Part shown: piece by piece, positions 3,472 to 34,254 of the stretch
Layout of the letters: each line of letters begins with the position of its first letter
Numbering within the stretch: the stretch's first letter is position 1
DNA from: Nitrospirales bacterium
GTDB lineage: Bacteria; Nitrospirota; Nitrospiria; Nitrospirales; UBA8639
Reading direction: 5' to 3'
Length of the DNA: 34,487 nucleotides
Assembly: GCA_022825885.1 (NCBI GenBank)
Contig: JAJDVY010000007.1
Span: forward strand, 1-34,487
The notes under the pieces: generated by a model
Database searches by the model: none
Seen by the model: the letters and a program-made list of their open reading frames with translations, nothing else
What the model was told of the DNA's origin: nothing
Program-made: the position numbers and the translations under genes

Positions 3472-5844
3472 TTACAATCTCAATTGTCTGAGCCGTAAGG
3501 CATTGGCAATGACCGACAACGAACTGAACGTCATGGCGACACTGGCGATGATGGGGCTCAGGAGAAGCCCCAGGAATGGATAAAGGAGACCCGCGGCAAT
3601 GGGCACTCCCAGCGCATTGTAGGCAAACGCAAAAAAGAGATTCTGCCGGATATTCTTCATCATGGCTTTGCTTAAGGTCCGGGCGCGAACCATGCCCCGG
3701 AGATCGCCTTTCACCAGGGTCATGCCCGCACTTTCCATTGCCACGTCAGTGCCCGTCCCCATGGCAACACCCACGTCCGCCGCGGCAAGCGCCGGAGCAT
3801 CGTTGATGCCGTCTCCGACCATCGCCACCACGTGCTCCTGCTTTTGCCATTGTTTGACCACCTGCTGCTTGTGTTCGGGCAGGACCTCGGCTTGCACGTG
3901 TTCCAGGCCCAGTTGCCGCCCCACGGCTTCGGCGGTCTGGCGATGATCACCCGTGACCATGACGATTGTGAGTCCTTCACGTTTCAGGGCATCCACCGCT
4001 TCGCCCGTGGCGACCTTGACGGGATCGGCGACGCCGATGAGACCAACCGGCTGCGCGTCAACCGCCACAAATATGACGGTTTGCCCTTCTTGCCGAAGAG
4101 CCTCACCGTGCCTGTTGAGTTCCAGCAATTGCTTCGACGGCACCCCCACGTCCCGTTCCAGAAACGGTCGATTCCCCAACGCCACGATTTTGCCATCCAC
4201 TTGCCCTTCCACCCCCTGACCGGTCTGAGAACGAAATTCTTCCACGTCACTGAAGGAAAGCCCTCGTTCCCGTGCACCCGCAACAATGGCTGCGGCCAAT
4301 GGATGTTCGCTAACTCGCTCGACACTGGCCGCCAGATAAAGCAGGGCTTCTTCATTCCATCCCGGTGCGGGAACAATTGACTGCAAAACGGGTTTTCCCT
4401 CGGTCAACGTGCCCGTCTTATCCAGCACCAGCATCGTCACTTTTTCCAATCGTTCGAGCGCTTCGGCATTCTTCACGAGCACGCCCGCGGTAGCGCCTCG
4501 TCCCATGCCGACCATGATCGACATGGGCGTCGCCAACCCGAGCGCACACGGGCAGGCAATGATCAGCACGGCCACGGCGTTCACCAGGGCATAAACCAGA
4601 CGAGGTTCCGGCCCGATGCTGGCCCACACGCCGAACGTGACGGACGCACACAACACGACGACCGGCACAAAATACCCGGCCACCGCGTCGGCCACCCGCT
4701 GAATGGGGGCACGACTGCGTTGAGCCTCGCTCACCATGTTGACGATCTGCGCCAGCATGGTCTCCTGGCCGACGCGTTTGGCTTCCATCAACACGGTGCC
4801 GGTTCCGTTCATGGTCCCTCCTATCACCCAATCCCCTGACCGCTTTTCAACCGGAATGGCTTCGCCCGTGACCATGGATTCGTCAACCGACGTCGAGCCT
4901 TCCAATACCTCCCCGTCCACCGGCAGTTTTTCGCCCGGACGCACACGGAGGCGGTCGCCAACGTTGACCCGTTCCAGGGGGATCTCCTCTTCCCGATCGT
5001 GACGTACGATCCTCGCAGTTTTCGGGGCCAACCCGAGGAGCGCCTTCAGCGCACCCGTGGTTCGACGCCGTGCCCTGATTTCCAACACCTGGCCCAAGGC
5101 CACCAGGACGATAATGACGGTTGCGGCCTCGAAATATACGGGTACGTCACCGGCCGGGGTACGATACGCCTCGGGAAACGCGCCCGGCAGAATCGTTGCC
5201 AGCGCGCTCGAACCGTAGGCCGCTCCCGTACCCAGGGCAATGAGGGTAAACATGTTGAGACGGCGGTTGACGATGGATGCCCACCCGCGCTGAAAGAACG
5301 GCAGCCCCACCCAGCCCATCACGGGCGTGGCCAGGACGAATTGCACCCAATTGGATAACCGGGGCGAAAGCACCTCCTGCAAGGGCCGGCCGGGGACCAT
5401 CCCGGCCATCGCCAACACCAACACGGGCAACGTCAGGACCACCCCCATCCAAAACCGGCGAGTCATGTCCACGAGTTCGGGATCGGGCTCGTCTTCTGCC
5501 GCGACGGTTGCCGGCTCCAAGGCCATGCCGCAGAACGGACACGCCGCTGGTTTGTCCGATACCACCTCAGGGCACATGGGGCAGACATACCGGGTCCCGG
5601 GTTTGGCCGGCGCCTCGTCCATGGACTGTTCGTACTTGCCGCTCAGATACCCGTCCGGGTCGACGCGAAACCGTTCTTCACATCGGGGATGGCAGAAATA
5701 GTACATCGTCCCCGCATGCTCATATTTCGCCGCAGCAGAAAGCGGGTCCACCGACATTCCACACACCGGATCCCGTGCCTGAGGCACACTGGCCATCATC
5801 AGTTCGCGGCGTTTGGATTTGGAAACGGATGGGTCCGGTGACAT
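3472..5844 (-). CDS. copA: Copper-exporting P1B-type ATPase CopA
   Basis: 790 aa. The N-terminal YHS-type metal domain has DPVCGM and CHPRC (about 51-55). A small Cys pair domain follows (YVCPMCPEV, then CPFCGM). The transport core has an actuator loop MVTGEAIPV, the metal-site CPC in helix 6 (431-433), the phosphorylation motif DKTGTLT (D475), the P1B-specific HP pair in SEHPL (about 512-516) and GDGINDAP (from 677). Helix 7 has Tyr-Asn (742-743) and helix 8 has Met-x2-Ser-Ser (771-775), the signature of Cu(I)-transporting P1B-1 pumps. It exports cytosolic Cu(I) using ATP. I chose the ATG at 5844 because AGAGAGG lies 9 nt upstream; an in-frame TTG at 5874 adds ten residues but has no support. 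There is no classical N-terminal CxxC MBD fold; the YHS and CxxC region takes its place. Confidence 0.95.
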
Positions 5845-5896
5845 CGCAATGGTCCTCTCTGGACGGATGGGCAATCCCTGCCGGTCTTCTCATAAG

Positions 5897-5973: not shown

Positions 5974-8061
5974 TTACGGGGACGGTACCACGAGGGGCGC
6001 ATTCGAGAGAACCGGCGTCACCGTTCCCACGTGGTAATTATGGCACGTTAAGCAGGTGTCTCCCGCTCGTGCTGCATGATGACACGTTGCACAAACGGCT
6101 TTCTTCATAGCTGAGAAGTTACTCCCAACGGGTATCGGGTTGGCGTCATCGACGGCTTCCGTGACCTCGGCGTCAGGGTTGAGCGTATGACACGTGAGAC
6201 AGCCTTTGTCGTCAAGCAAACTGAAATGGACCGCATGGGCAAAGCGCGTCACTTTCCGTTCATGGGAGGCCGGACGCGCCGCCGACCAATGAATCCGTTT
6301 CCGTTGACCGGCTTGAGTCTCGACACTGTGACACTTCATGCACAGCCCATGAGCCTTGGGGTTTGACAACGCCGTGAAAATCGCCTCGGCTGAACGTCCG
6401 TGTTTTGTTCCCGTTGATTGAACGGTCAGATCCAGCCATGCACACAAAAACGGATCGGCGTGTCCTACTGGGCGGTAGAGTATGACAAAATCCAAATCCT
6501 GACGATACCAGCCCCCAACCATGGTCCTCTTTTCACGTTCTCGGTCCGAGCGGATTGCCTGTTCTCCTTCACGATCTTCAAGCCGGACCACCGTCTCTTC
6601 GGCTCCCAGGGCGGACAACTCCATCGTTAAATGAGGTAGCCATTGTTGCTGTGCGTCACGAATCACCTCAACCGGCAATTGACCAATCAGGTCCGTAAAT
6701 TTCCGCGTACCGAGATTCGTTGTCGCCTGAAGCCGGTTCAACATTTCCCGTTGCCCCCTTTGGGTCAAATCGTCAAACAGCCTTTTCACAGCCCAGGTCA
6801 TCCTGCCTACGGCTGCGATTTCTTCATCCGTGGCATCCGACAGATCCGTGAAATCGTCAAACCCGGACAGGATAGCCAGGTCGTCAGCCACGGCAGGATC
6901 GGTTCCCAGCAACAACGCCATGAAAGGCGTGAGCCCGTTCTCGACGTTGGCATCGGCCGGCCATTCGCCAACGGAGACGCCATGCTCATGCAGCGTCTCC
7001 AGATCCAACCCCGGCAACCGCAAGAACGCAAGCCCCTTTGCCCCCGCCCGACCGATCCCTTTGATCTGCCCTGCATGACAACTTGCGCAAGCCGTCTCAA
7101 AGGTGCCCGTTCGCATAGTTTGACCGTCGTCATCAGGCCTATGGCAAGTGGTACAGGTTCCCGGAGCATCTTCCCTGAATTTGCCAAGAAAATGTTTCCC
7201 GATATGGGAATTGTGATCAAAGACCACCCGTGTACGCCGCTTGTACGGGTAACCTGAAAACGGCGGGTGCCCATTGGCGAAATCCGGGAATGCCCGGGCA
7301 TGACAGGTTTGACACTGTTGCTCGTCCATCGCGACCAGGTTGAAATGTTTCCCTCGATGCTCCCTGTGACACGTTGCGCAAGCCAATTGCGGCTCTCCCG
7401 TTTCCATCAAATTCGGCATCCAGGATGAAAGAACTCGAAACAACGGTACGGCGGCGGGCTGAGACATCCGGCTCAAACGTTCCGTGACGGCGGCCAATTC
7501 CTTTGAAGGACGCCCATGCGCCTCCAAGGCGTGGTCTCCGAGATGATGACACGTCAGACACCGCCTACCGTTCTCCTGCCCCGTTCCCGGCGCACCCAGT
7601 CCAAACACCAGATCCACAAGGCTTCCATGCACGGCCGTATGACAGTCCGCACAAGATCCGGCTGAGGCTCCATGCCCGAACGTGAGTTCTCCGGGAGAAA
7701 AGAAGGCCGACCCTTTCGGACCGGAGAGAAAGAGCAGCGAGAGACCAACCATGACCATGGAAAGCCAAAACGTGACCCTGCGTCGCACGGCCAGGAGACT
7801 GGGAATCGGCTGACACGCGGGAACGGACCGGCAACAGGTTCCGTCCGGCAAAGGCCCATCCTTACACGGTCCGCCCGGGGTTCGGGAACAATGCCACCGC
7901 GCCCCTTCCCATACCGGGACACATTCCATCGTGACCCGGCAGCGTCCCTTCTCGTCGGGGCCGGTCGAACAGGCCGGCTCTTCCGTCGCCCGTCCGCAAA
8001 CCCAGTTCCGGGTGGGCCGGGCAACGCGCCCTTTACGGAATCCATCGTCCTGCAAGCGCAT
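5974..8061 (-). CDS. Decahaem c-type cytochrome, inner-membrane anchored, with Cys-rich cytosolic N-terminus
   Basis: 695 aa, last gene of the electron-transfer cluster, starting 3 nt after the cytochrome b-like gene. Ten CxxCH motifs begin at residues 137, 168, 228, 250, 303, 325, 574, 621, 657 and 670. One membrane helix lies at about 97-114. Three Arg (93-95) precede it, so by the positive-inside rule residues 1-95 are cytosolic and the haems periplasmic. The cytosolic part has nine Cys (22, 31, 41, 47, 58, 66, 76, 77, 83) and many Gly/Pro, enough for a metal or Fe-S centre, though no standard motif fits. Residues 330-570 carry no haem and form a charged, mainly helical insert. From memory, similar N-termini occur in cytochrome c3-like proteins of sulfur-oxidising bacteria; their function is unknown to me. 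Likely role: periplasmic electron hub at the inner membrane. Confidence 0.85.
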   Translation of the reverse strand: MRLQDDGFRKGRVARPTRNWVCGRATEEPACSTGPDEKGRCRVTMECVPVWEGARWHCSRTPGGPCKDGPLPDGTCCRSVPACQPIPSLLAVRRRVTFWLSMVMVGLSLLFLSGPKGSAFFSPGELTFGHGASAGSCADCHTAVHGSLVDLVFGLGAPGTGQENGRRCLTCHHLGDHALEAHGRPSKELAAVTERLSRMSQPAAVPLFRVLSSWMPNLMETGEPQLACATCHREHRGKHFNLVAMDEQQCQTCHARAFPDFANGHPPFSGYPYKRRTRVVFDHNSHIGKHFLGKFREDAPGTCTTCHRPDDDGQTMRTGTFETACASCHAGQIKGIGRAGAKGLAFLRLPGLDLETLHEHGVSVGEWPADANVENGLTPFMALLLGTDPAVADDLAILSGFDDFTDLSDATDEEIAAVGRMTWAVKRLFDDLTQRGQREMLNRLQATTNLGTRKFTDLIGQLPVEVIRDAQQQWLPHLTMELSALGAEETVVRLEDREGEQAIRSDREREKRTMVGGWYRQDLDFVILYRPVGHADPFLCAWLDLTVQSTGTKHGRSAEAIFTALSNPKAHGLCMKCHSVETQAGQRKRIHWSAARPASHERKVTRFAHAVHFSLLDDKGCLTCHTLNPDAEVTEAVDDANPIPVGSNFSAMKKAVCATCHHAARAGDTCLTCHNYHVGTVTPVLSNAPLVVPSP

Positions 8062-8064
8062 AGG

Positions 8065-8880
8065 CTATCCCGTTGTATACACCGATATCACAATTGCGTG
8101 AACGAATGAGAGAATCAGGAGGCTATAAGCCACGGGAACGTGGATAAACAACCAGTATTTGAGCGTCCCCTGGAGTGTTTGCTGATAATCAAGATCATCC
8201 TTGGCGCGGATCAGGGCGCGCAACGCTTCTGCTCTTTCCCGTTCCTTTTCTCCTAACCCGCGGCCCAAAGACTCAAGATCCGTGAGAAGCGCACGACGGG
8301 AACGGGTGGAGTCGAAGAGATGGCTCCAATAGTTCAGCGGTCCGTCCAGAAAAGCGGCTAACCGGCGATCATGGAAATCCGCGAAGATCGTCGTATGATC
8401 CTCTGAAACGGTACGTTCAATGACGTCTTCAATTTTTTCACGGAGGCGCTCTCGCATGATGGGAATGCGTTCAAAGCTCACCGCCTCTCCACTCATCGCG
8501 AGTCGCCGCGACAGCACGTGTAACAGGATGAGCCCGACGATCCCGCTGACGGCACACGCCGCATACAACAGCGCCAGCGTGACTTCAAACAGACCATTTG
8601 GAACACGAAGTCCAATATGCAGGGCAACAAGCGCGAGGGTCAGCAGACCGCCAAACACGTGAAGCTGGAACCAATCAATGGACGCTCTCAACGGAAAAAC
8701 GGGAAGTCGATTGCGAAGATTGTACGTCATCAGGGCAACAAGGAAGACAAAGAGGAGCCACCCCGAGAGAAACGTGGTCCGGTAAGGTGAAACAACTGAT
8801 GCGGCGTACAGGCAGGCGAGGAGAAGGATGAGCACGCTCCAGGTCGCGAGGGCGACCCAATGTCGTGACACAAACGTCAT
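8065..8880 (-). CDS. Integral membrane di-haem cytochrome b-like protein
   Basis: 271 aa. The ATG at 8880 overlaps the stop of the gene before it (ATGA), which decides the start over an upstream in-frame codon. Five membrane helices are seen at about 8-30, 37-53, 71-91, 98-122 and 242-266. Helix 3 carries His74 and His88; helix 5 carries His247 and His261. Both pairs are 14 residues apart, the spacing of haem-ligand pairs in cytochrome b of bc1 complexes, so two b haems stacked across the membrane are predicted. Arg residues in the 2-3 loop and in a 115-residue polar loop (124-240) put both loops in the cytosol. His74/His247 would then bind the inner haem and His88/His261 the outer one. I cannot assign it to a named family. 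Context says it passes electrons between the cytosolic side and the periplasmic cytochromes. Confidence 0.75.
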   Translation of the reverse strand: MTFVSRHWVALATWSVLILLLACLYAASVVSPYRTTFLSGWLLFVFLVALMTYNLRNRLPVFPLRASIDWFQLHVFGGLLTLALVALHIGLRVPNGLFEVTLALLYAACAVSGIVGLILLHVLSRRLAMSGEAVSFERIPIMRERLREKIEDVIERTVSEDHTTIFADFHDRRLAAFLDGPLNYWSHLFDSTRSRRALLTDLESLGRGLGEKERERAEALRALIRAKDDLDYQQTLQGTLKYWLFIHVPVAYSLLILSFVHAIVISVYTTG

Positions 8881-9974
8881 CACCGGTTCAGCCGGCCAAC
8901 GAGGGCCGGAAGATCGTGCATCGTCAACTGTTCGGGAGGGCCTCCGGGTTTGCCTTTGTATCGCTCTGCCTGCGGGATGATTCGATCCAAGGCACTCCAT
9001 TGACTGCCGTCACGGGTGCCGGCAAGCGTTTGAATCGTCACGGCAATTTCGTCGGCGGCAACCAAACCGGCTTCCTTGTTGTGCAGCTTCAGATCGAGGC
9101 CTTCGATGATTTTCAGGATTGTCCTGACTTCCGGAACAGAAATCAGCGCGTCGATTGTCCGAAGTTCGGCCACGACGCGTTCAACGCGCTTCATCATCCC
9201 GGTTCTATACGTCCCGTTTTCCGTCGACTCGACAAGGGCGCGGAGACCGTATTCGAGATCGAGGGATTTCCCCACAACGTAGAGCATCCGTTTGTGCTCA
9301 GGGGACGCCTCGTCATTCTTCTTCCCCTCAGAGCGGAGAAACTTGTGGCGGATTTCGCCCAGCGACCACGACAACAACTCAAAGTCGTCACTCCCGGGTC
9401 CATGCCTTCCGACGTTCACCAACTTTTCATTGGATACGATGTGACATTGATAGCAGTTGGACGCAAGACGATACAGATCCTTGGGCCGAATCATGCCGGA
9501 ATCCTTGATTGCGGCAACACGCTTGGCCTTATGCTTGGGCGTCTCCTGTTCACGGGTCACGTTCTTCCCGCCGTAATCACCATGAACCTTCAGCCAGTCC
9601 TTTGCCGGACCATGGCAAGACTCGCAGGAGATGCCGGCAATGGCTTTGACCTTGTTCTTTCGATAGCCGGACGTGAAATGACAGGACACACAGGCTTCGG
9701 CCCTTTTCACGCGTCTGATCCCCATGTTACTGGCAATCTCCTTGGTCTGCTTCTTACGCGTCAACAGGTGAAAGGTTTTGGCGTGCCTGGTTTCTCGCCA
9801 GACGTGCACTTCCGCTTTGTGACATTCGCCGCATTCGTCCGGCCCCACAATGTTCAGAAGATCGTTTTCGGACAGATCGTCAGCCTCAATCTCACCATTG
9901 GAAAAGACCTGGAATCCCGGCACGAGACTGAAGCACACCAGAACCAGCCGGACCGCGGCACTGACGCGGTTCAT
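8880..9974 (-). CDS. Tetrahaem cytochrome c, c554-like
   Basis: 364 aa with an N-terminal signal sequence (hydrophobic 7-24). Four CxxCH motifs lie at 48-52 (CGECH), 95-99 (CVSCH), 117-121 (CESCH) and 174-178 (CYQCH). The order and surroundings (GPDECGECHK, VWRETRHAKTFH, CESCHGPAKDW, then a HGDYGGK loop) are those of the cytochrome c554 family of soluble periplasmic electron carriers, best known beside hydroxylamine oxidoreductase. Residues 200-364 extend past the haem part as a helical, charged domain without haem motifs. No hydroxylamine oxidoreductase is nearby, so the partner is more likely the membrane protein whose start overlaps this stop. It lies 71 nt after the ferredoxin gene. Confidence 0.85.
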   Translation of the reverse strand: MNRVSAAVRLVLVCFSLVPGFQVFSNGEIEADDLSENDLLNIVGPDECGECHKAEVHVWRETRHAKTFHLLTRKKQTKEIASNMGIRRVKRAEACVSCHFTSGYRKNKVKAIAGISCESCHGPAKDWLKVHGDYGGKNVTREQETPKHKAKRVAAIKDSGMIRPKDLYRLASNCYQCHIVSNEKLVNVGRHGPGSDDFELLSWSLGEIRHKFLRSEGKKNDEASPEHKRMLYVVGKSLDLEYGLRALVESTENGTYRTGMMKRVERVVAELRTIDALISVPEVRTILKIIEGLDLKLHNKEAGLVAADEIAVTIQTLAGTRDGSQWSALDRIIPQAERYKGKPGGPPEQLTMHDLPALVGRLNR

Positions 9975-10045
9975 CCGTCCATCACCTTCCTGAAGTGGGC
10001 CCGCAGGGCATTCACGTTCACCCCGGTCAAGTCACGCAACGATGA

Positions 10046-10513
10046 CTACGCGTCCAAAATCAACGTACCGGTGGGAATGGAAAAGCACAGGAAGCACCAG
10101 CCTGCCGCCGGTCTGTCCTGAAAGGATGACACGTACGAGACGGCCCCGGACTTGATGGCCGTCAGACATCTCCCGCATTTGCCGCTACGGCATCCCACGC
10201 GCACATTGACGTTATTTCTTTTGGCAAGTTCCAATAATGAGCCGATGCTCGGGTCCCAGAGACACGTCTTGCCCGACCTGGCAAAGACGACTTCAATACC
10301 CAAACCCGCAGGCGTGGCGGCTGACCTCGTACGCTTGCGCTCCAGGTGCCGCGCCGTCGCGGCCTGCACACGACGGCGGAACGCTTCACGGGCAAAGCGA
10401 CGCTGCTGCTTTCTGTATCTGATCCCACGCCACAACCCGACGAGCAAACCGGCGAGCCGACACAGGCCCGCCACGACGATACCGCCCCCGATTCCCTGTA
10501 TCACCCACTCCAT
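10046..10513 (-). CDS. Membrane-anchored [2Fe-2S] ferredoxin-like protein
   Basis: 155 aa. I chose the ATG at 10513, preceded by GAGG with a 6-nt spacer, over a GTG four codons upstream. One membrane helix (about 8-28) is followed by a run of basic residues (31-48), which places the C-terminal domain in the cytosol. Residues 72-155 form a plant-type ferredoxin domain with C108-x4-C113-x2-C116 and the fourth ligand at C143 (FLCFSIP), the standard pattern for a [2Fe-2S] centre. C84 and C140 are extra. It should carry one electron at a time between a cytosolic partner and the membrane. A cytosolic ferredoxin fixed to the membrane inside a cytochrome/barrel gene set is the unusual feature. The 107-nt gap after the barrel gene holds a short hairpin (10564-10568/10576-10580) with no clear T-run. 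Confidence 0.85.
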   Translation of the reverse strand: MEWVIQGIGGGIVVAGLCRLAGLLVGLWRGIRYRKQQRRFAREAFRRRVQAATARHLERKRTRSAATPAGLGIEVVFARSGKTCLWDPSIGSLLELAKRNNVNVRVGCRSGKCGRCLTAIKSGAVSYVSSFQDRPAAGWCFLCFSIPTGTLILDA

Positions 10514-10620
10514 CCTTTCCCTCACGGACCAGTCTTCGCTCTCGTCGCCGTCAAAACGTTGAAGCCCGTCTCAAGCGGGCCTCAGCCCCGTGCCCGCGGT
10601 CAGCAACACCTTCATCATCC

Positions 10621-12042
10621 TCAAAATTTCGTGAGCCATTCAAGACGCGCTCCATAGGACGGGTCGCGTCCTTCCTGCACCGCTCCAAAAGCATCGACTT
10701 GGGCCACGACATGACGACCGATGGCATGTTGATACCGAAAACCCGCGGCATAGGCCTCCCCATTGTCGACCTGATTGTTCGTATTCTTCCGGCCCCCCAA
10801 CTCAACAACAAGCTGTTGACGGGTCCGGTTGAAAAAGGCCTGATACCCGAGACTGCCTCCGGCGGCATTGTCGGCCTGATTGCCCAATGCGGCCGCATAC
10901 TGGCCCAATCCCACGGCGGCAAACAGAATCCCGGTTCGCCCGAGCGGTCCGCCGGTTTCAGGACCGCGAATGGCCGAGGAAAACTCACCGATTCCCCAAA
11001 ACGTATTGAGGTAGAGGAAATCCCGGGTATGCGGCGGGGTCCAGGAAATTTCATTGAATACCAAAGTGCCGCGGCTGGTTTGCGGCGTTTCACGCGTTGT
11101 TGGAAGCGAGGCATTGAAGGTCAACGTCGTATTGAAAGGCCCAATGCGCTGAACGCCTCGGAGTCCGGCAAACCAGGCATCACCCGTGTCCTCTCCCGCT
11201 TCGAGGTAGACAAGATCCAGATCGATCGTCGTCATGGGAAAGTCCGTTTCCGTAAACAGGCCGAAGAGTTGGGCATCCCGGTCGAGCCGGTTATTATCCC
11301 GGTACACGTTGCCCCACGCATAGAAGGCACTGAGCCGTACGTTCGACGTCCCCGGTAGTTGCAGGTTGTTGCGGACCAGCGAAACGGCGTCAGGATTACC
11401 CAGCCCCCCGCTATTGATCAGGATGCCGTCCTGAAACAGCACCGCTTGCCGGCCAACCGAAAAACCCACGTCGAGCATCCCGGTATCCTCACGATCAAGC
11501 GCCGGAACGATCTCTCCCAGGTCCCCTTCAAAGAATAGCGTCCTGACCACTGCGTTCAATTCGTCCTGAAAGCCTCCGTCAGGTTCAAACGACAGGCCGG
11601 TAAAACGGTTCTCACGATCCAAGGGGCGCAATCCGATCAACAGGCGCTCCGAGGCCGACAATTTGAGATTGGCGAACAGGTCGAGACGGTGAGCCCATTC
11701 AGAAACGCGCGTCGCGCCGTCATCGATAGTCTGCGCGGCCATCCGGTGTGTCCCGAATACCCAAAGGGATGGACGCCATACCGCGCCGGTGGGCAATTCG
11801 ACTTCCGGACCAAACGGCCCGGCTCCAAGAAACGGATCCCCCAATTCCAGAAGAAGCGCCGGACGTTCCGGCACGTCTTCCACTTGAAGCGGGAGAGGCC
11901 TGTCGGACAACCGGCTTTCTGATTCCATCTCCCCGGGTCGCGCCCCTGCCTCGCCTTGCCCTTCCGAGCCGGCCCATGCCGGTGAAAGCCCCATCAGTAA
12001 CGCCAGAACCATGAAGGGGGAAAGGCTGAACGCTCTCTTCAT
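10621..12042 (-). CDS. Outer-membrane beta-barrel (porin-like) of the cytochrome cluster
   Basis: 473 aa. A signal peptide with cleavage after AWA is near residue 24. The mature protein has many alternating amphipathic strands and ends WLTKF, with the C-terminal Phe recognised by the outer-membrane assembly machinery. Parts (for example VGRQAVLFQDGILIN) recall the alginate-export type of 16-18 strand barrels, but I do not assign that function. Its ATG overlaps the TGA of the pentahaem cytochrome gene (ATGA), so the two are translationally coupled. In known porin-cytochrome conduits a barrel surrounds or holds a multihaem protein so electrons can cross the outer membrane; the same role is inferred here. 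A simple solute porin made with the cytochromes is the alternative. Confidence 0.75.
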   Translation of the reverse strand: MKRAFSLSPFMVLALLMGLSPAWAGSEGQGEAGARPGEMESESRLSDRPLPLQVEDVPERPALLLELGDPFLGAGPFGPEVELPTGAVWRPSLWVFGTHRMAAQTIDDGATRVSEWAHRLDLFANLKLSASERLLIGLRPLDRENRFTGLSFEPDGGFQDELNAVVRTLFFEGDLGEIVPALDREDTGMLDVGFSVGRQAVLFQDGILINSGGLGNPDAVSLVRNNLQLPGTSNVRLSAFYAWGNVYRDNNRLDRDAQLFGLFTETDFPMTTIDLDLVYLEAGEDTGDAWFAGLRGVQRIGPFNTTLTFNASLPTTRETPQTSRGTLVFNEISWTPPHTRDFLYLNTFWGIGEFSSAIRGPETGGPLGRTGILFAAVGLGQYAAALGNQADNAAGGSLGYQAFFNRTRQQLVVELGGRKNTNNQVDNGEAYAAGFRYQHAIGRHVVAQVDAFGAVQEGRDPSYGARLEWLTKF

Positions 12043-13835
12043 TGGCCGGGTGTCCGGTCCTTTGGGACACCGTCAAATACCACGTCGCGCTCCCATAACG
12101 TCACGTGTCCTTCCACGACTCCTTCGGCGACGTCACGGGGACTCATTCCATAATCAAACCCAACCTCTTTGATGTCACCAATCAGATTGACCGGCACCAT
12201 GCCGAGTATCAGCTTGATCGTGGCGGCATAGGGACCGTTGCCCGTTAACCGGGCACCCGGGATCTCATACAACGCCCACCGGCTCCCGTGCGGTTCAATG
12301 CTGCTCCTGTGCTTTCTCACGTTTACCGGGCGTCCCAGCAGAACGCTTGACTGCGTAAGCGGACGTAGAAACGGCAACGGATCAAATGAAGGGTTGACCG
12401 GGATGATCCGTTCGCTCTCGCTGCCACGGAAGTTCCTGGTGACGAATTTTGATTGCAGATTGAACAGGTACGGGTCCGGCGGCAATTCCCCATTGTGAAC
12501 GTACCGTGAATGGGCATCTCGAAGATCGCCGTTGGGGTCCAGGTCGCCGGACTTGAAGATGACCGTTCCATCGCGGTCCGTCACCGTCACCTGCAAGTAG
12601 ACGACGCGCTCCGCATCAAAACCGGTTGGCACTCCATGACCCGTGGTGCCATTCCGTACCTGCACCTGAAACCGGATTCCTTCTTCATCGGCCCGTTCGG
12701 TCACGACTTCGCCGAGCGTAAATCCTGCCTGCAACAACTGTTTTCGCTGAACCAGATATTCGTCCAACAAGGCCAATTGCCGGTCCAGAATTTCACGGGC
12801 GTCATATCGTTCGTCAACGGAATTCCAGCGCTCGGGGAACACCGCGTCGCCGGGAACCTCGTCCTCAAACGCATCCGTCCCCCACCCGGCCTCATAATCA
12901 AACGTCAGCCACTCCCGGATGCTGGCGGCCTTCGCCGCGTCCGGATTGTGCGGAAAGATCCCGGGATGGATGACCGAATGATCCGGCCCGGGGAACATAT
13001 GATTGGTGCGTTTCCGCGGCTTGGTCTCGACGTCTCCGACCCGGGCGGCAGGCGCCACGGCGTATCCCGACGGTCGACCGGGCTCCGTTCCCATATGACA
13101 ATCCTGACAGGTGACGCCTGCCTTCGCAGACGGCGACGTCTTATACTCACTGAAGGTTTCCTCCAGACGGAATCCATTGAGCAAATTGACGTCGTGGCAC
13201 ACACCACAAAACCCGGGGGTCACGAGTTGAAAAAATTTCTTCGCGTCGGTATGGATGGTCCGGCCAGGTTTGCCTCGTTCGGTGTTGACCCGGTATTCCT
13301 CACTGTCAATCACACGCCGGAGTTCTTTGTTACCCGTCGGTCCGTAAACCGGTTCGAGCAGATCGCCCTCCACGATCTTCATCCGACCGCTTTCTTTCCC
13401 ATACGCTTGATTAATCCGGTGACAGACAATACAGGTCACACCCTCTCGAGAAACCGGATGCCGGTCAACGGTGCTCATGAATAACGGCTCTCCACGGTTC
13501 ATCCCCACTTGGGTGTGGCAACGAATACAGAAATCCCCGTTGGTTCCGTTGGTCCGTTTGAGGATGGTGCCGTGCATGGCATTGAACACGGGACTCATCT
13601 GAGCATAGGCGTGCGGGGATACCGACCATTCACGGTAATGATCTTCGTGACACGTTTTACAGGCGGCAGCCGAGGGAAACCGGTTGCCCCTCTCCAATGC
13701 CTCGTGCGCAGATTCGGAAGAAATTTCCCTGTCGCCGGTTGATTGTTCTGCCGCACCGGGCAGAACCGCCGTCGCACCCATCGCCATCAACAGCAATGGA
13801 AGCATCAGGCGGTTCGTTTTCAACCTTGACGTCAT
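12039..13835 (-). CDS. Pentahaem cytochrome c with C-terminal beta-rich domain
   Basis: 598 aa, first gene of the cluster. I chose the ATG at 13835; an in-frame TTG four codons upstream is less likely, and neither has a strong Shine-Dalgarno. A signal sequence covers about 1-28. Five CxxCH motifs lie at 59-63, 103-107, 135-139, 210-214 and 243-247, with surroundings (CKTCHEDHYREW, then CIRCH, CIVCH, CGVCHDV, CQDCHMG) like multihaem cytochromes of the c554 group. Residues 290-598 hold no haem and look beta-rich (GHGVPTGFDAERVVYLQVTV, then FKSGDLDPNG), possibly a sandwich fold for docking or surface exposure. The coupled barrel gene suggests it sits in or on the outer membrane. No catalytic signature for nitrite or hydroxylamine chemistry was recognised. 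Confidence 0.85.
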   Translation of the reverse strand: MTSRLKTNRLMLPLLLMAMGATAVLPGAAEQSTGDREISSESAHEALERGNRFPSAAACKTCHEDHYREWSVSPHAYAQMSPVFNAMHGTILKRTNGTNGDFCIRCHTQVGMNRGEPLFMSTVDRHPVSREGVTCIVCHRINQAYGKESGRMKIVEGDLLEPVYGPTGNKELRRVIDSEEYRVNTERGKPGRTIHTDAKKFFQLVTPGFCGVCHDVNLLNGFRLEETFSEYKTSPSAKAGVTCQDCHMGTEPGRPSGYAVAPAARVGDVETKPRKRTNHMFPGPDHSVIHPGIFPHNPDAAKAASIREWLTFDYEAGWGTDAFEDEVPGDAVFPERWNSVDERYDAREILDRQLALLDEYLVQRKQLLQAGFTLGEVVTERADEEGIRFQVQVRNGTTGHGVPTGFDAERVVYLQVTVTDRDGTVIFKSGDLDPNGDLRDAHSRYVHNGELPPDPYLFNLQSKFVTRNFRGSESERIIPVNPSFDPLPFLRPLTQSSVLLGRPVNVRKHRSSIEPHGSRWALYEIPGARLTGNGPYAATIKLILGMVPVNLIGDIKEVGFDYGMSPRDVAEGVVEGHVTLWERDVVFDGVPKDRTPGQ

Positions 13836-14014: not shown

Positions 14015-14042
14015 AGTATACGCAATTTAAGCTAATTGTCAA
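14015..14042 (-). promoter_or_regulatory. Sigma70-type promoter for the cytochrome cluster
   Basis: On the minus strand a perfect TTGACA (14042-14037) is followed after 16 nt by TATACT (14020-14015, 5/6). It lies about 180 nt before the pentahaem ATG and is the only near-consensus promoter found upstream of it. Confidence 0.65.
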
Positions 14043-14168
14043 ACCCTAGTAATTAGACCTTTCGATTTAAATCTAAACGGAACAATGATTCCGAATTCTG
14101 ACGGAATTCAACCGGTCAGTTGGCCTGGAAATACTGCAGAAGAACGGACGGGAACGCCTTTTTATTGA

Positions 14169-28451: not shown

Positions 28452-29351
28452 ATGGAAATCGGATTTATCGGACTCGGCAAAATGGGTATGAATATGGTGA
28501 CGCGGCTCCGCCGGGACGAACACCGGGTGCTGGTCTTCGACCGGGCGCAGGACATGGTCACACAGGCGGAAGGAATCGGAGCGGTCGGGTCTTCTTCCCT
28601 GCAGGACCTCGTCTCGAAACTGGCCAAACCGCGCGCTATCTGGGTGATGGTCCCTTCGGGTGCACCGACGGAAGATACCGTTCAGGCCCTGGCGGGGCTG
28701 TTGGACCCCGACGACGTGATCATCGATGGAGGGAACACCAATTTCCACGACGACGTCCGGAGGGCTGCGGAATTGAGCACCAAGGAGATTCATTATATCG
28801 ACGCCGGAACCAGCGGCGGCATTTGGGGACTCCAGATCGGCTACTGCCTGATGATTGGCGGCGAAGCAACAGTCGTGCGCCGGCTTGAGCCGGTGTTCAC
28901 CACGTTGGCTCCGCAAGACGGATGGGCTCACGTGGGTGGTCACGGGGCAGGACATTACGTCAAAATGGTCCATAACGGCATTGAATACAGCATCATGCAA
29001 GGCTATGCCGAAGGATTCGAGTTGATGTCGAAAAGCGATTACCGCCTTGATTTACCCAAAATTGCCGACCTGTGGATGCATGGGAGCGTCGTGCGTTCAT
29101 GGCTGTTGGAACTCGGGGCCGCGGCACTCAAAGACGATCCCACGCTTGCCGGATTAAAAGGATACGTTCAGGATTCGGGCGAAGGCCGATGGATGCTGAT
29201 GGAGGCGATGGATAAGGACGTGCCGGTCCCCACCCTGTCCGCTGCGCTCTTCACCCGTTTCCGGTCCAGGCAAGAAGAATCGTTTTCGGAGAAAATGCTG
29301 GCAGCTCTCCGCCAGGCATTCGGCGGGCATAAGGTCAAAACGTCGACGTGA
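28452..29351 (+). CDS. gnd: 6-phosphogluconate dehydrogenase, decarboxylating, short (GndA/YqeC) type
   Basis: 299 aa, with GAAGGG 7 nt before the ATG. The NAD(P)-binding FIGLGKMGMNM is at 5-15. Substrate residues lie in DGGNTNFHDD and DAGTSGGIWG, and the catalytic Lys171 is in GHYVKMVHNGIEY. It oxidises 6-phosphogluconate to ribulose 5-phosphate and carbon dioxide. The length (about 300, not 470) marks the short type. Asp30-Arg31 at the end of the second strand (VLVFDRA) suggests NAD preference, though this needs assay. It is followed after 10 nt by zwf, and the two form an operon for the oxidative pentose-phosphate entry. Confidence 0.95.
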   Translation: MEIGFIGLGKMGMNMVTRLRRDEHRVLVFDRAQDMVTQAEGIGAVGSSSLQDLVSKLAKPRAIWVMVPSGAPTEDTVQALAGLLDPDDVIIDGGNTNFHDDVRRAAELSTKEIHYIDAGTSGGIWGLQIGYCLMIGGEATVVRRLEPVFTTLAPQDGWAHVGGHGAGHYVKMVHNGIEYSIMQGYAEGFELMSKSDYRLDLPKIADLWMHGSVVRSWLLELGAAALKDDPTLAGLKGYVQDSGEGRWMLMEAMDKDVPVPTLSAALFTRFRSRQEESFSEKMLAALRQAFGGHKVKTST

Positions 29352-29361
29352 ACAGAATACG

Positions 29362-30909
29362 ATGACGCAGACCGCACAACCGGAACAGTCCTTGCCGATT
29401 CGATCCGGATCCGGTGGAGGAATCGAACCTTGTACCCTTGTCATTTTTGGGGGATCCGGGGATCTCACCAAGCGTAAACTCCTGCCGGCCCTTTACAATC
29501 TGAAGCTGGATGGATCGCTGCCCGCCAATTACGCCGTCATCGGAATCGGACGCAAAGCCTGGACTGACGACGAGTTCAGGAGCATGGCGCGCGGCGGCAT
29601 CGAACAGTTCTCCCGGCAGTCTCTTCAACGGGACACATGGGCGGACTTTGCCCAACGCCTGCACTATTTCTCCGGAGCCAGCGAAGACCTCACGATGTAT
29701 GAACGGCTCCGAGGACGCATCGAAGAAATCGAGGTCCAATTCAATTTGCCGGGCAGCCGCATCTTCTATCTCGCCATTCCGCCCACCTCCTTCGGCCCCT
29801 CATGTGAAGGGTTGCGACACGCCGGGTTGATCTATCCGGCCGACCGGACTGATCGCGTCTCACGGGTCATTGTTGAAAAGCCCATTGGTCATGATCTCGA
29901 GTCGGCAAAATCCATCAATATGACGATCGGCGACGTATTCGATGAATCGCAAATCTACCGCATCGATCATTACCTCGGGAAAGAAACCGTTCAGAATATC
30001 ATGGTGCTCCGGTTCGCCAACAGCATTTTCGAACCGATCTGGAATCATAAATATATCGACCACGTCCAATTGACCGTGAGTGAGGAGGAAGGCTTGGGCA
30101 CCCGAGCCAGCTATTACGAACACGCCGGAGCACTCCGGGACATGGTGCAGAATCACATCCTCCAGCTCCTCTGCCTGATTGCCATGGAACCGCCTTACTC
30201 ATTGGACCCGGACGTCATTCGGAATGCCCGCATGGAGGTTCTGCGTTCCCTCCGCCCCATCCGCGGAACGGACGTGGAGCGCGCCACCGTTCGCGCGCAA
30301 TACACCACGGGAAGCATCAAAGGCCGGGAGGCTCCCGGGTACCGGCAGGAGGCCGGCGTCCGGCCGGGTTCGACAACGGAAACGTACGTGGCGCTTCGGT
30401 GTCACGTCGAAAATTGGCGGTGGTCGGGTGTTCCCTTTTATCTGCGAACCGGGAAAGCCATGCCGCGTCGCGCTTCGGAAATCGCCGTTCAATTCAAAGA
30501 CATTCCGGAAATTCTCTTCAATACCTCGCCTCAAACGCGCCAAGCTCCCAACGTCCTGACGTTTCGCATTCAACCCCAGGAAGGTCTGGCGTTGAGGATT
30601 ATGGCCAAAAATCCCGGAAGCCGGGCAACAACCCATCCCGTGGACATGAACTTCAATTACGACGATGCCTTTGCCGCACCCTCGCCTGAAGCGTATGAAC
30701 GGTTGCTGTTGGACGTGATGGCCGGAGACTCCTCGCTGTTCATGCGGCGCGACGCCGTAGAAGCCTCATGGGCCTGGATTACTGACATCCTGGATGGCTG
30801 GAACGCCCAAGACCAACGCTGGTTGCCCGAATATCCCGCAGGCACGTGGGGCCCCATCGAAGCCGACAAGCTCATCGCCACCGACGGCCAACAGTGGCGG
30901 TTGGTGTAA
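29362..30909 (+). CDS. zwf: Glucose-6-phosphate 1-dehydrogenase
   Basis: 515 aa, full family length. Nucleotide loop GGSGDLTKRKL is at 30-40, EKPIGHD at 172-178, and the substrate/catalytic motif RIDHYLGKE is at 200-208. It converts glucose 6-phosphate to 6-phosphogluconolactone with reduction of NADP (or NAD). No separate lactonase gene (pgl) is seen between it and gnd, so that step is either coded elsewhere or spontaneous. The gene begins 10 nt after the gnd stop. The residues before about 22 are extra relative to the first strand of the fold and look flexible. Confidence 0.97.
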   Translation: MTQTAQPEQSLPIRSGSGGGIEPCTLVIFGGSGDLTKRKLLPALYNLKLDGSLPANYAVIGIGRKAWTDDEFRSMARGGIEQFSRQSLQRDTWADFAQRLHYFSGASEDLTMYERLRGRIEEIEVQFNLPGSRIFYLAIPPTSFGPSCEGLRHAGLIYPADRTDRVSRVIVEKPIGHDLESAKSINMTIGDVFDESQIYRIDHYLGKETVQNIMVLRFANSIFEPIWNHKYIDHVQLTVSEEEGLGTRASYYEHAGALRDMVQNHILQLLCLIAMEPPYSLDPDVIRNARMEVLRSLRPIRGTDVERATVRAQYTTGSIKGREAPGYRQEAGVRPGSTTETYVALRCHVENWRWSGVPFYLRTGKAMPRRASEIAVQFKDIPEILFNTSPQTRQAPNVLTFRIQPQEGLALRIMAKNPGSRATTHPVDMNFNYDDAFAAPSPEAYERLLLDVMAGDSSLFMRRDAVEASWAWITDILDGWNAQDQRWLPEYPAGTWGPIEADKLIATDGQQWRLV

Positions 30910-32484: not shown

Positions 32485-34254
32485 TTACTCAGACAATCCT
32501 GGCAATGCCTCCTCGACCGCCTGCAGGATTCGCCTGCCCCCGGCTTCCACGTCGCAGCCGAGATGAATCCGGAGCACCCGCCGGTTTCGCGCGCACAGAC
32601 TTTTCATATCTCCCAGGGCCTGGGCGGCCGCCAACGTCCCAAATGCATAGGGCTCTCCGGGAATAGCCAGATCCTCTTCGTGGTCCGCGGTGACCTGAAG
32701 GAACACCCCGGAATTGGGGCCACCCTTATGGAGTTGACCGGTGGAATGAAGAAAGCGCGGGCCGTACCCCAACGTCGTCGCGACCCGTTTCGCATCACGA
32801 ATGATGGCACGAATACGTTGGAAAGCTTCATGAACCGCCGGCGTCCGTTCAAGATACGCATTGATCGCCACGTAATCTCCGGTCCGTACACGGGAGAGAT
32901 GCGCGGCCATCGCATGGGGCAATGAAGATGTGCCATGTAACGCTTGACGATTTGCCTCATCGGTGAAGAGACGAACGTCGCCATCCGTGATGATGGGGAA
33001 TTCCTCCGGCAATCGTCCATTCTGTTTGAATTCTTCGAGATAGAACTTGGTAAAATCCTTGCTTTCCTGGACGTTGGGTTGATCGAACGCGTTGATTCCC
33101 AACAGAGCACCGGCGGTGGCGGTCGCGATCTCCCAATGGAAGAACTCCTGACCGAGATTCATCAAATTCGTGCAATCAATACGCACGACCGGATGTCCCT
33201 CCGATGCCAAAGCATCGACAATGGCATCTTGCTCTGAAACGGCCCCATCCGCATAACGGATATACACAAACACACGATCGTTCCCGTAAACGTGCGCATC
33301 CTTCAGTGGTTCATCATCGACCGGAATGAGGCCCGTGTTTTCTTTCCCCGTACTTTCGGCTATCAACTGTTCCAACCAAGCCCCCAAATCGCTGATGGCG
33401 GGAGAGGTGACAAACGTCACCTTGTCATGACCGGCTTTGGCCAACGTCCCCAGAACCACCCCCAACGCAACCCCGGGATTGTCCGGTGCCGGCACGCTCG
33501 AATCGCATCGTTGACGCATGCGTTCGGCCCGAAGCAGAAGCGCCTCGACGTCCACGCCCATGGCGGCGGCCGGCACCATGCCGAAGTTGGACAAGGCCGA
33601 ATAACGCCCTCCGACGTCGGGCACACCCGGAAAAATCGCTCGAAACCGGAGTTCCCGCGCCAAACGTTCCAGGAGGGAACCCGGATCGGTAATCGCGACA
33701 AAGTTTTCGCCGGCGCGATCGCCCTTGATCCGTCGCATCCGTTCAAAAAAGTATTGTTGGAACACCAGCGGTTCGGTCGTCGAACCGGACTTACTCGCCA
33801 CGATACACAGCGTCCGTTCGAGATCGACTCTTGCTTCAACACTCCTCACTTGCGAGGGAACGGTACTATCCAACACGTGCAGTTCGGGATAGCCGGGAAC
33901 AACGCCGAAGGTCATCCGGCACACTTCAGAACAGAGGCTGCTCCCGCCCATGCCCAACAAGAGAATATGGGTAAACCCGCCGGATGCTACTTCGCCGGCA
34001 AACGCCTGCAACCGCGAGACGTGGCCGATCTGTTGTTCAGGAAGAGACAGCCAACCAAGGGCACCCCGAATGACGGCCTGATGCGCGGGGTCCTCATGCC
34101 ACAATGCAGGATCCTTGGCCCAGAGCCTGCGCACAAAATCCTTGGCCTGGACTTCATCCAGTGCCGCCCGCACAGCCATGTCGTATGATCCCACCACAAA
34201 GGTCTGGCGGTTCAAACCTTGATCACGCGCCCGTTCCTGATCGTTAGCACTCAT
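32485..34254 (-). CDS. pgi: Glucose-6-phosphate isomerase, Tal-Pgi-like form
   Basis: 589 aa. Phosphosugar-binding segments are LLLGMGGSSLCSEV, CIVASKSGSTTEPL, SALSNFGMVPAAAMG and GKENTGLIPVDDEPL, and the C-terminus has LHKGGPNSGVFLQVT. It interconverts glucose 6-phosphate and fructose 6-phosphate. From memory the sequence is closer to the isomerase half of fused transaldolase-Pgi proteins than to classical Pgi, but no transaldolase part is fused here. It supplies glucose 6-phosphate to the gnd-zwf branch, from which it is separated by the AT-rich insert. The ATG at 34254 lacks a clear Shine-Dalgarno. Confidence 0.9.
   Translation of the reverse strand: MSANDQERARDQGLNRQTFVVGSYDMAVRAALDEVQAKDFVRRLWAKDPALWHEDPAHQAVIRGALGWLSLPEQQIGHVSRLQAFAGEVASGGFTHILLLGMGGSSLCSEVCRMTFGVVPGYPELHVLDSTVPSQVRSVEARVDLERTLCIVASKSGSTTEPLVFQQYFFERMRRIKGDRAGENFVAITDPGSLLERLARELRFRAIFPGVPDVGGRYSALSNFGMVPAAAMGVDVEALLLRAERMRQRCDSSVPAPDNPGVALGVVLGTLAKAGHDKVTFVTSPAISDLGAWLEQLIAESTGKENTGLIPVDDEPLKDAHVYGNDRVFVYIRYADGAVSEQDAIVDALASEGHPVVRIDCTNLMNLGQEFFHWEIATATAGALLGINAFDQPNVQESKDFTKFYLEEFKQNGRLPEEFPIITDGDVRLFTDEANRQALHGTSSLPHAMAAHLSRVRTGDYVAINAYLERTPAVHEAFQRIRAIIRDAKRVATTLGYGPRFLHSTGQLHKGGPNSGVFLQVTADHEEDLAIPGEPYAFGTLAAAQALGDMKSLCARNRRVLRIHLGCDVEAGGRRILQAVEEALPGLSE

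Follow-up and report, generated by a model that had tools for sequence, protein, structure and literature searches.

Gene content of the locus

We analysed a stretch of 34,487 nucleotides (nt), hereafter the window, which is contig C35 of a draft genome (2.38 Mb, 95.5% complete) of a Nitrospirales bacterium. Six co-directional genes occupy positions 5974-13835 of its minus strand, in the order pentahaem c cytochrome, outer-membrane barrel, [2Fe-2S] protein, tetrahaem c cytochrome, cytochrome b and decahaem c cytochrome (Table 1). Judged by gene content and motifs, this is a reduced operon of the PCC4 family, a putative porin-cytochrome cluster described by He et al. 2017 (PMC5566968). An earlier reading of the same DNA, made from the sequence only, had matched the composition to no characterised system; as a putative cluster, however, it was already known. 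Gene content, domains and motifs, their conservation and co-occurrence, and the nested loss described below were established by sequence comparison.

All six genes and all 19 CxxCH motifs of the sequence-only reading are in place: five motifs belong to the pentahaem, four to the tetrahaem and ten to the decahaem protein. Residue shuffles yield means of 0.003 to 0.07 motifs and a maximum of two, far below these counts. One of the two reported ATGA overlaps was observed (4 nt, between the pentahaem and barrel genes), whereas the tetrahaem and cytochrome b genes share a 1-nt overlap, TGATG; the 3-nt gap between the cytochrome b and decahaem genes is as described. All six reading frames are open. 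The ratio of nonsynonymous to synonymous substitution rates (dN/dS), computed pairwise against three or four relatives, is 0.17-0.38 in each gene, which indicates purifying selection; the cluster is real and in use. Five species share most of the hexamers of the candidate promoter, with TTGACA and TATA unchanged, and its flanks have diverged.

Table 1. Features of the candidate PCC4-type operon in the window (aa, amino acids; TM, transmembrane; Ig, immunoglobulin)
Feature	Position	Strand	Description
Decahaem c cytochrome	5974..8061	-	695 aa; 10 CxxCH; TM helix 96-114, then periplasmic haem part
Di-haem cytochrome b, inner-membrane protein	8065..8880	-	WX3HX13H twice, SGXXG
Tetrahaem c cytochrome, c554 family	8880..9974	-	364 aa; PF13435 E 3e-16; PDB 1bvb c554 E 2e-10
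Membrane-anchored [2Fe-2S] protein	10046..10525	-	159 aa; Pfam Fer2; anchor plus C-terminal ferredoxin domain of a reductase
Outer-membrane barrel	10621..12042	-	473 aa; predicted 18-strand OprD/Occ/AlgE-type channel; C-terminal Phe
Pentahaem c cytochrome	12039..13835	-	598 aa; Sec signal, five-haem domain, C-terminal Ig-like domain
Candidate promoter TTGACA-16 nt-TATACT	14015..14042	-	~180 nt upstream of pentahaem start; 11/12 consensus match

Distribution and co-occurrence

The search for related loci used the pentahaem protein as its sole seed and one genome per species. It gave at least 80 loci, in the phyla Nitrospirota, Nitrospinota, Pseudomonadota, Planctomycetota, Verrucomicrobiota and Acidobacteriota and in Gemmatimonadota, Latescibacterota, Hydrogenedentota, KSB1, Calditrichia and Myxococcota. 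The closest named relatives at the locus are metagenome-assembled genomes (MAGs) of Nitrospira and Nitrospirales (L017 to L019, L075).

In 71 of the 72 loci with a long enough contig, the next gene after that of the pentahaem protein encodes the barrel; in the sole exception, L025, a second pentahaem gene intervenes. Among the 34 loci with full flanks, the tetrahaem gene is present in 31, cytochrome b in 27, the decahaem gene in 25, and all three in 24. Co-occurrence had been set as a test beforehand, and the genes do occur together, which agrees with the suggestion of the sequence-only reading that they form one co-conserved trans-envelope redox system. Of 79 Nitrospirota genomes, the eight with a strong match to cytochrome b also have one to the pentahaem protein, and a ninth has the pentahaem match only. 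The cluster is found in 6 of the 14 species of the window's genus. The barrel is rare, with five occurrences among 296 evenly sampled Nitrospirota genomes, mainly in this genus. Besides the iron-sulphur (Fe-S) protein and the reductase considered below, no further conserved genes naming a substrate were observed near the cluster; only five loci have nearby a gene judged, by sequence alone, to be glutamate dehydrogenase-like.

Outer-membrane barrel and multihaem cytochromes

All structure models are of single chains, without haems or complexes. The AlphaFold model of the barrel (predicted local distance difference test score, pLDDT, 86) matches the structures of 18-strand Occ/OprD channels and of AlgE from one end of the barrel to the other (Z 24-28), a likeness in fold at a sequence identity of ~10%. 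The comparison with OccK7 gives Z 28.3 and a root-mean-square deviation of 2.9 for 322 aligned positions within residues 90-473. The barrel is thus predicted to be an 18-strand OprD/Occ/AlgE-type channel, and such a fold would be too narrow for an MtrA-like plug. MtrB-like barrels were not among the best structural matches, an absence that by itself is no proof.

The model of the pentahaem protein (pLDDT 84) has its best PDB match in c552 of Thermochromatium tepidum (5ze8; Z 22.8, 353 aligned, 23% identity), which shares the five-haem domain followed by an Ig-like domain. This architecture is common to c552, Geobacter ExtKL and the pentahaem proteins of cable bacteria (PMC11976967). On the other hand, identity to c552 is low, and no barrel partner is reported for c552 in the literature found. 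The match to the ExtKL model NF040886 (42 bits, E 4e-11) is below the curated cut-off of 250 bits, and the sequence suggests a distant relative of ExtKL. As read from the sequence, the mature pentahaem protein has ten cysteines in all, every one a haem cysteine; selenoprotein chemistry of the ExtKL kind was therefore rejected. The pentahaem and tetrahaem proteins of the window have no lipobox, and a lipobox-like motif was observed in just one of 83 pentahaem homologues. With a soluble c552-like protein beside a predicted 18-strand channel, an MtrAB-like conduit with a cytochrome inside the barrel is not supported.

Three more ExtKL-like multihaem proteins of 422-452 aa are encoded elsewhere in the genome (G000:C4:7672-10127 and C46:61227-62051). 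Weak ExtKL-like matches resembling these occur in most Nitrospirota genomes searched, whether the cluster is present or absent.

Conserved histidines outside the CxxCH motifs number ten for the ten haems of the decahaem family, four for the four of the tetrahaem family, and seven for the five of the pentahaem family. They would be sufficient for six-coordinate ligation of all 19 c-haems, and thus these are probably electron-transfer haems, wires rather than an enzyme. Instead of the tetrahaem gene, members from Acidobacteriota, KSB1, Gemmatimonadota and Calditrichia have a gene for a seven- to eight-haem fusion of two c554-like domains (L022:5758-7938, L023:13798-15864, L026:3175-5283, L076:13548-15476).

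One feature beyond the sequence-only reading is a stretch with nine cysteines (residues 22-83) at the N-terminus of the decahaem protein, ahead of its only TM helix. The helix is preceded by VRRR, and thus by the positive-inside rule the stretch is predicted to be cytosolic, which makes an Fe-S or zinc site plausible; binding of Fe-S or zinc is a fair guess. The stretch is kept in most homologues and absent from the near relative L075.

Inner-membrane part and loss of reductase domains

The two membrane histidine pairs of the sequence-only reading are those of cytochrome b, H73/H87 and H246/H260, conserved at 98-100% in 50 homologues. The complete motifs, W69-H73-H87, S111 G112 G115 and W242-H246-H260, are conserved in the same set.

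The [2Fe-2S] protein, in which the sequence-only reading had seen a ferredoxin cysteine set, has a Fer2 domain. It is membrane-anchored by a TM helix (residues 11-29) with positive charges following. In most relatives the same domain forms the C-terminus of a membrane-anchored reductase of ~430 aa with the domains FAD_binding_6, NAD_binding_1 and Fer2. In the L020 reductase (435 aa), the window protein has its aligned counterpart in residues 351-435: the TM anchor and the conserved cysteine motif are kept, whereas the FAD/NAD part is gone. Most relatives also have, between the tetrahaem and cytochrome b genes, a gene for a protein of ~590 aa that combines cNMP-binding domains with a multi-[4Fe-4S] ferredoxin part, in which PF13247 is included.

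The short form of the [2Fe-2S] gene is common to all six cluster-bearing species of the window's genus (genomes 95-100% complete), and none of these six genomes has the cNMP/[4Fe-4S] gene anywhere. In the tree of pentahaem proteins, the members with the short form group as a single clade (support 100), nested among Nitrospiria that retain the whole reductase (L020, L021), and thus the reduction is derived. L020, the nested sister, carries the [4Fe-4S] gene too (Fer4_11, PF13247). Absence of that gene requires at least three changes on the tree. An assembly gap was rejected as the cause, the state being the same in all six species. Nor was the reductase found to have moved: with the L020 reductase as query, the genome of the window returns its [2Fe-2S] gene and nothing else. 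One weak NAD_binding_1 protein (C49, 320 aa) is present in 12 of the 14 species irrespective of the cluster. Since the FAD/NAD domains, the [4Fe-4S] gene and, in L075, the cysteine-rich stretch have been lost, the cytosolic side seems to be the part being trimmed.

These losses could mean that the operon, deprived of its NAD(P)H input, is a remnant on its way out, the more so as a near relative lacks the decahaem stretch as well and the cluster occurs in fewer than half of the species of the genus. However, we consider decay very improbable: the six frames are open and under purifying selection, the shortened [2Fe-2S] gene with its conserved cysteine motif included, the promoter is conserved, and every cluster-bearing species of the genus has the same short form.

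A different change was observed in Hyphomicrobium and Rhizobiales (L094, L095, L096). There the tetrahaem gene adjoins a gene for a reductase-like 2Fe-2S/FAD/NAD protein whose [2Fe-2S] domain is N-terminal (e.g. L095:7793-8980, minus strand). The usual reductase with the C-terminal [2Fe-2S] domain is absent near the cluster in loci of this type; judged by sequence, the NAD(P)H input seems to have been replaced by a non-orthologous one.

Comparison with known systems

PCC4 was described as a porin with periplasmic cytochromes of four, five and ten haems, with no extracellular cytochrome, an inner-membrane protein whose TM3 and TM5 each carry WX3HX13H and whose TM4 carries SGXXG, and a redox gene that precedes the tetrahaem gene (PMC5566968). 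Subgroup I consists of Hyphomicrobium, and Subgroup II, from Zeta-, Gamma- and Alphaproteobacteria and Planctomycetes, adds a pfam13247 Fe-S gene upstream of the inner-membrane protein (PMC5566968). The window agrees with this description in the haem motifs of its three multihaem cytochromes, in the motifs of cytochrome b, in the predicted barrel, in the lack of an extracellular cytochrome (the decahaem protein is TM-anchored, the other two have no lipobox), and in the position of the [2Fe-2S] gene, which corresponds to the redox gene.

The differences are that this redox gene is cut to the anchor and the [2Fe-2S] domain, without FAD/NAD domains; that the pfam13247 gene of Subgroup II is missing, although all genes have one direction as in the complete relatives; and that the host belongs to Nitrospirota, not listed for PCC4 in the text of He et al. 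(PMC5566968). The traits of Subgroup I, absence of the Fe-S gene and genes in two directions, were seen in Hyphomicrobium L094 and L096 and in Rhizobiales L095. Thus the window cluster appears to be a PCC4 that belongs to neither subgroup and descends from the complete form. No report of this composition in Nitrospira or sponges turned up in targeted literature searches.

The MtrCAB, MtoAB and PioAB systems also encode multihaem cytochromes along with an outer-membrane barrel. In these, a decahaem cytochrome plugs a much larger barrel of about 26 strands. The window, in contrast, has a soluble five-haem protein and a predicted 18-strand channel, and at the inner membrane it has a b cytochrome partnered by a [2Fe-2S] protein.

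In the extHIJKLMNOPQS cluster of Geobacter sulfurreducens (PMC5877670, PMC6148476) a porin likewise adjoins a pentahaem cytochrome of a related family; four-, ten- and twelve-haem cytochromes, a cytochrome b and an Fe-S protein are encoded as well, and extHIJKL has no outer-membrane cytochrome. However, the window pentahaem protein falls below the ExtKL cut-off, there is no selenocysteine or rhodanese, and the Fe-S protein is of plant-type [2Fe-2S] rather than Rieske type. The likeness of the window barrel to ExtI stands on gene context, each being a porin beside a pentahaem gene.

The ext precedent bears on another explanation, true extracellular electron transfer, in which the pentahaem protein would dock with the barrel or insert into it and pass electrons to solid or large acceptors such as Fe(III) or Mn(IV). 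A Geobacter strain with only extHIJKL and no outer-membrane cytochrome retains partial reduction of metal oxides (PMC6148476), whereas the impaired selenite and tellurite reduction seen on deletion of extI (PMC5877670) counts for the channel reading given below; this precedent cuts both ways, and extracellular transfer is therefore kept as a rival. It is also consistent with possible six-coordination of all 19 haems, with the relation of the pentahaem family to one proposed to form nanowires (PMC11976967), and with the conduit proposed by He et al. for PCC4, though with electrons entering the cell (PMC5566968). On the other hand, the barrel model fits substrate channels too narrow for an MtrA-like plug, and the operon has no surface cytochrome or lipoprotein; lipobox-like motifs are nearly absent among the pentahaem homologues. 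We regard this explanation as possible, if rather doubtful.

Possible mechanism

The explanation we favour, with about even confidence, is a quinone-independent electron wire from cytosol to periplasm that would serve a small redox partner entering through a dedicated channel, the direction and the partner being unproven. In the complete seven-part form, electrons would pass from NAD(P)H to FAD and to the [2Fe-2S] centre of the membrane-anchored reductase and cross the inner membrane via the two b haems, with the cNMP-binding multi-[4Fe-4S] protein as a relay or gate. The decahaem and tetrahaem proteins would then pass them to the periplasmic pentahaem protein, which the small redox-active partner may reach through the 18-strand channel. 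The window lineage no longer has the FAD/NAD domains or the [4Fe-4S] protein, and its anchored [2Fe-2S] domain must therefore trade electrons with another cytosolic carrier, which could be a ferredoxin or an unlinked reductase. We infer the outward direction, the order of carriers, the independence of quinone, and the role and substrate of the channel.

The FAD/NAD(P)H reductase of most members suggests that the chain is linked to a cytosolic cofactor instead of, or besides, quinone. The cytosolic ferredoxin link of the sequence-only reading is thus still plausible, as is an NAD(P)H pool.

Several points weigh against the proposed wire. The direction of electron flow is not fixed by the sequence, and cytochrome b could exchange electrons with quinone, as proposed by He et al. 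(PMC5566968). The pore-facing residues, assigned by strand alternation alone, include many conserved Arg and Asp/Glu and are charge-balanced (12 positive, 14 negative); they name no substrate. Finally, neither a functional study of PCC4 nor a biochemical study of any cluster protein was found in the literature, most subscription journals being outside the search.

The model of He et al., proposed without a functional test, runs from an extracellular donor to the quinone pool (PMC5566968). Fe(II), Mn(II) or a reduced small molecule would feed quinone or, uphill, ferredoxin or NAD(P) for carbon fixation. PCC4 was indeed reported from Fe(II) oxidisers and drinking-water-filter bacteria (PMC5566968), and 15 of the at least 80 loci are from OFTM isolates, a label used for MAGs from the Oslofjord tunnel (Fe/Mn-oxidising biofilms). 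The host genome has genes for molybdopterin oxidoreductases and a ferredoxin-dependent 2-oxoacid oxidoreductase, as expected for a nitrite oxidiser with the reductive tricarboxylic acid cycle; by kinship and the molybdopterin-oxidoreductase genes the host is probably a nitrite oxidiser. However, FNR-type reductases with a terminal [2Fe-2S] domain usually accept electrons from NAD(P)H. Moreover, transfer from Fe(II) or Mn(II) to NAD+ is strongly uphill and the operon has no pump, and nitrite probably provides the host with electrons already. Inward flow is thus quite unlikely.

A more specific form of the wire we favour is rewiring, in this nitrite-oxidising lineage, from NAD(P)H to the ferredoxin pool of the 2-oxoacid oxidoreductases. 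It would give a quinone-independent path from ferredoxin to the outer membrane with a dedicated channel, and the nine-cysteine stretch of the decahaem protein may be a new metal-binding entry. We put this forward tentatively and consider it doubtful.

Upstream region and neighbouring genes

A dyad-like sequence, GGAAT-N-ATTGTTCC, lies at window positions 14078-14093, ~40 nt upstream of the -35 box, and is also present upstream in L017, L018, L019 and L075. Some relatives have a second dyad, GGAATGT-CGTTCC, upstream of the operon. The upstream dyad is a possible operator for a regulator of the operon.

On the same strand, ~100 nt downstream of the decahaem gene, is a gene for a copper-type P1B ATPase with YHS and heavy-metal-binding domains (3472-5874). 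At the far end of the contig, 6-phosphogluconate dehydrogenase, glucose-6-phosphate dehydrogenase and phosphoglucose isomerase-like genes are grouped (28452-30906 and 32488-34254).

Implications

PCC4 was proposed nearly a decade ago from few genomes of iron oxidisers, and is now seen to be conserved in many phyla. New here is the observation that the usual [2Fe-2S] protein of PCC4 appears to be the C-terminus of a FAD/NAD(P)H reductase, and that neither the FAD/NAD domains nor the [4Fe-4S] gene survive in the window lineage; new too are the predicted 18-strand channel, the predicted c552 fold of the pentahaem protein, and the extra histidines for all 19 c-haems. With an NAD(P)H/FAD/[2Fe-2S] reductase as the usual cytosolic end, the published quinone model may be incomplete. 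The barrel resembles a small-molecule channel and not a cytochrome sheath. If this is true, many organisms classed as capable of extracellular electron transfer by counts of porin-plus-cytochrome genes may in fact be reducing a small molecule within the periplasm. Through its natural loss of domains, the window lineage offers a ready-made test of the electron source of the chain.

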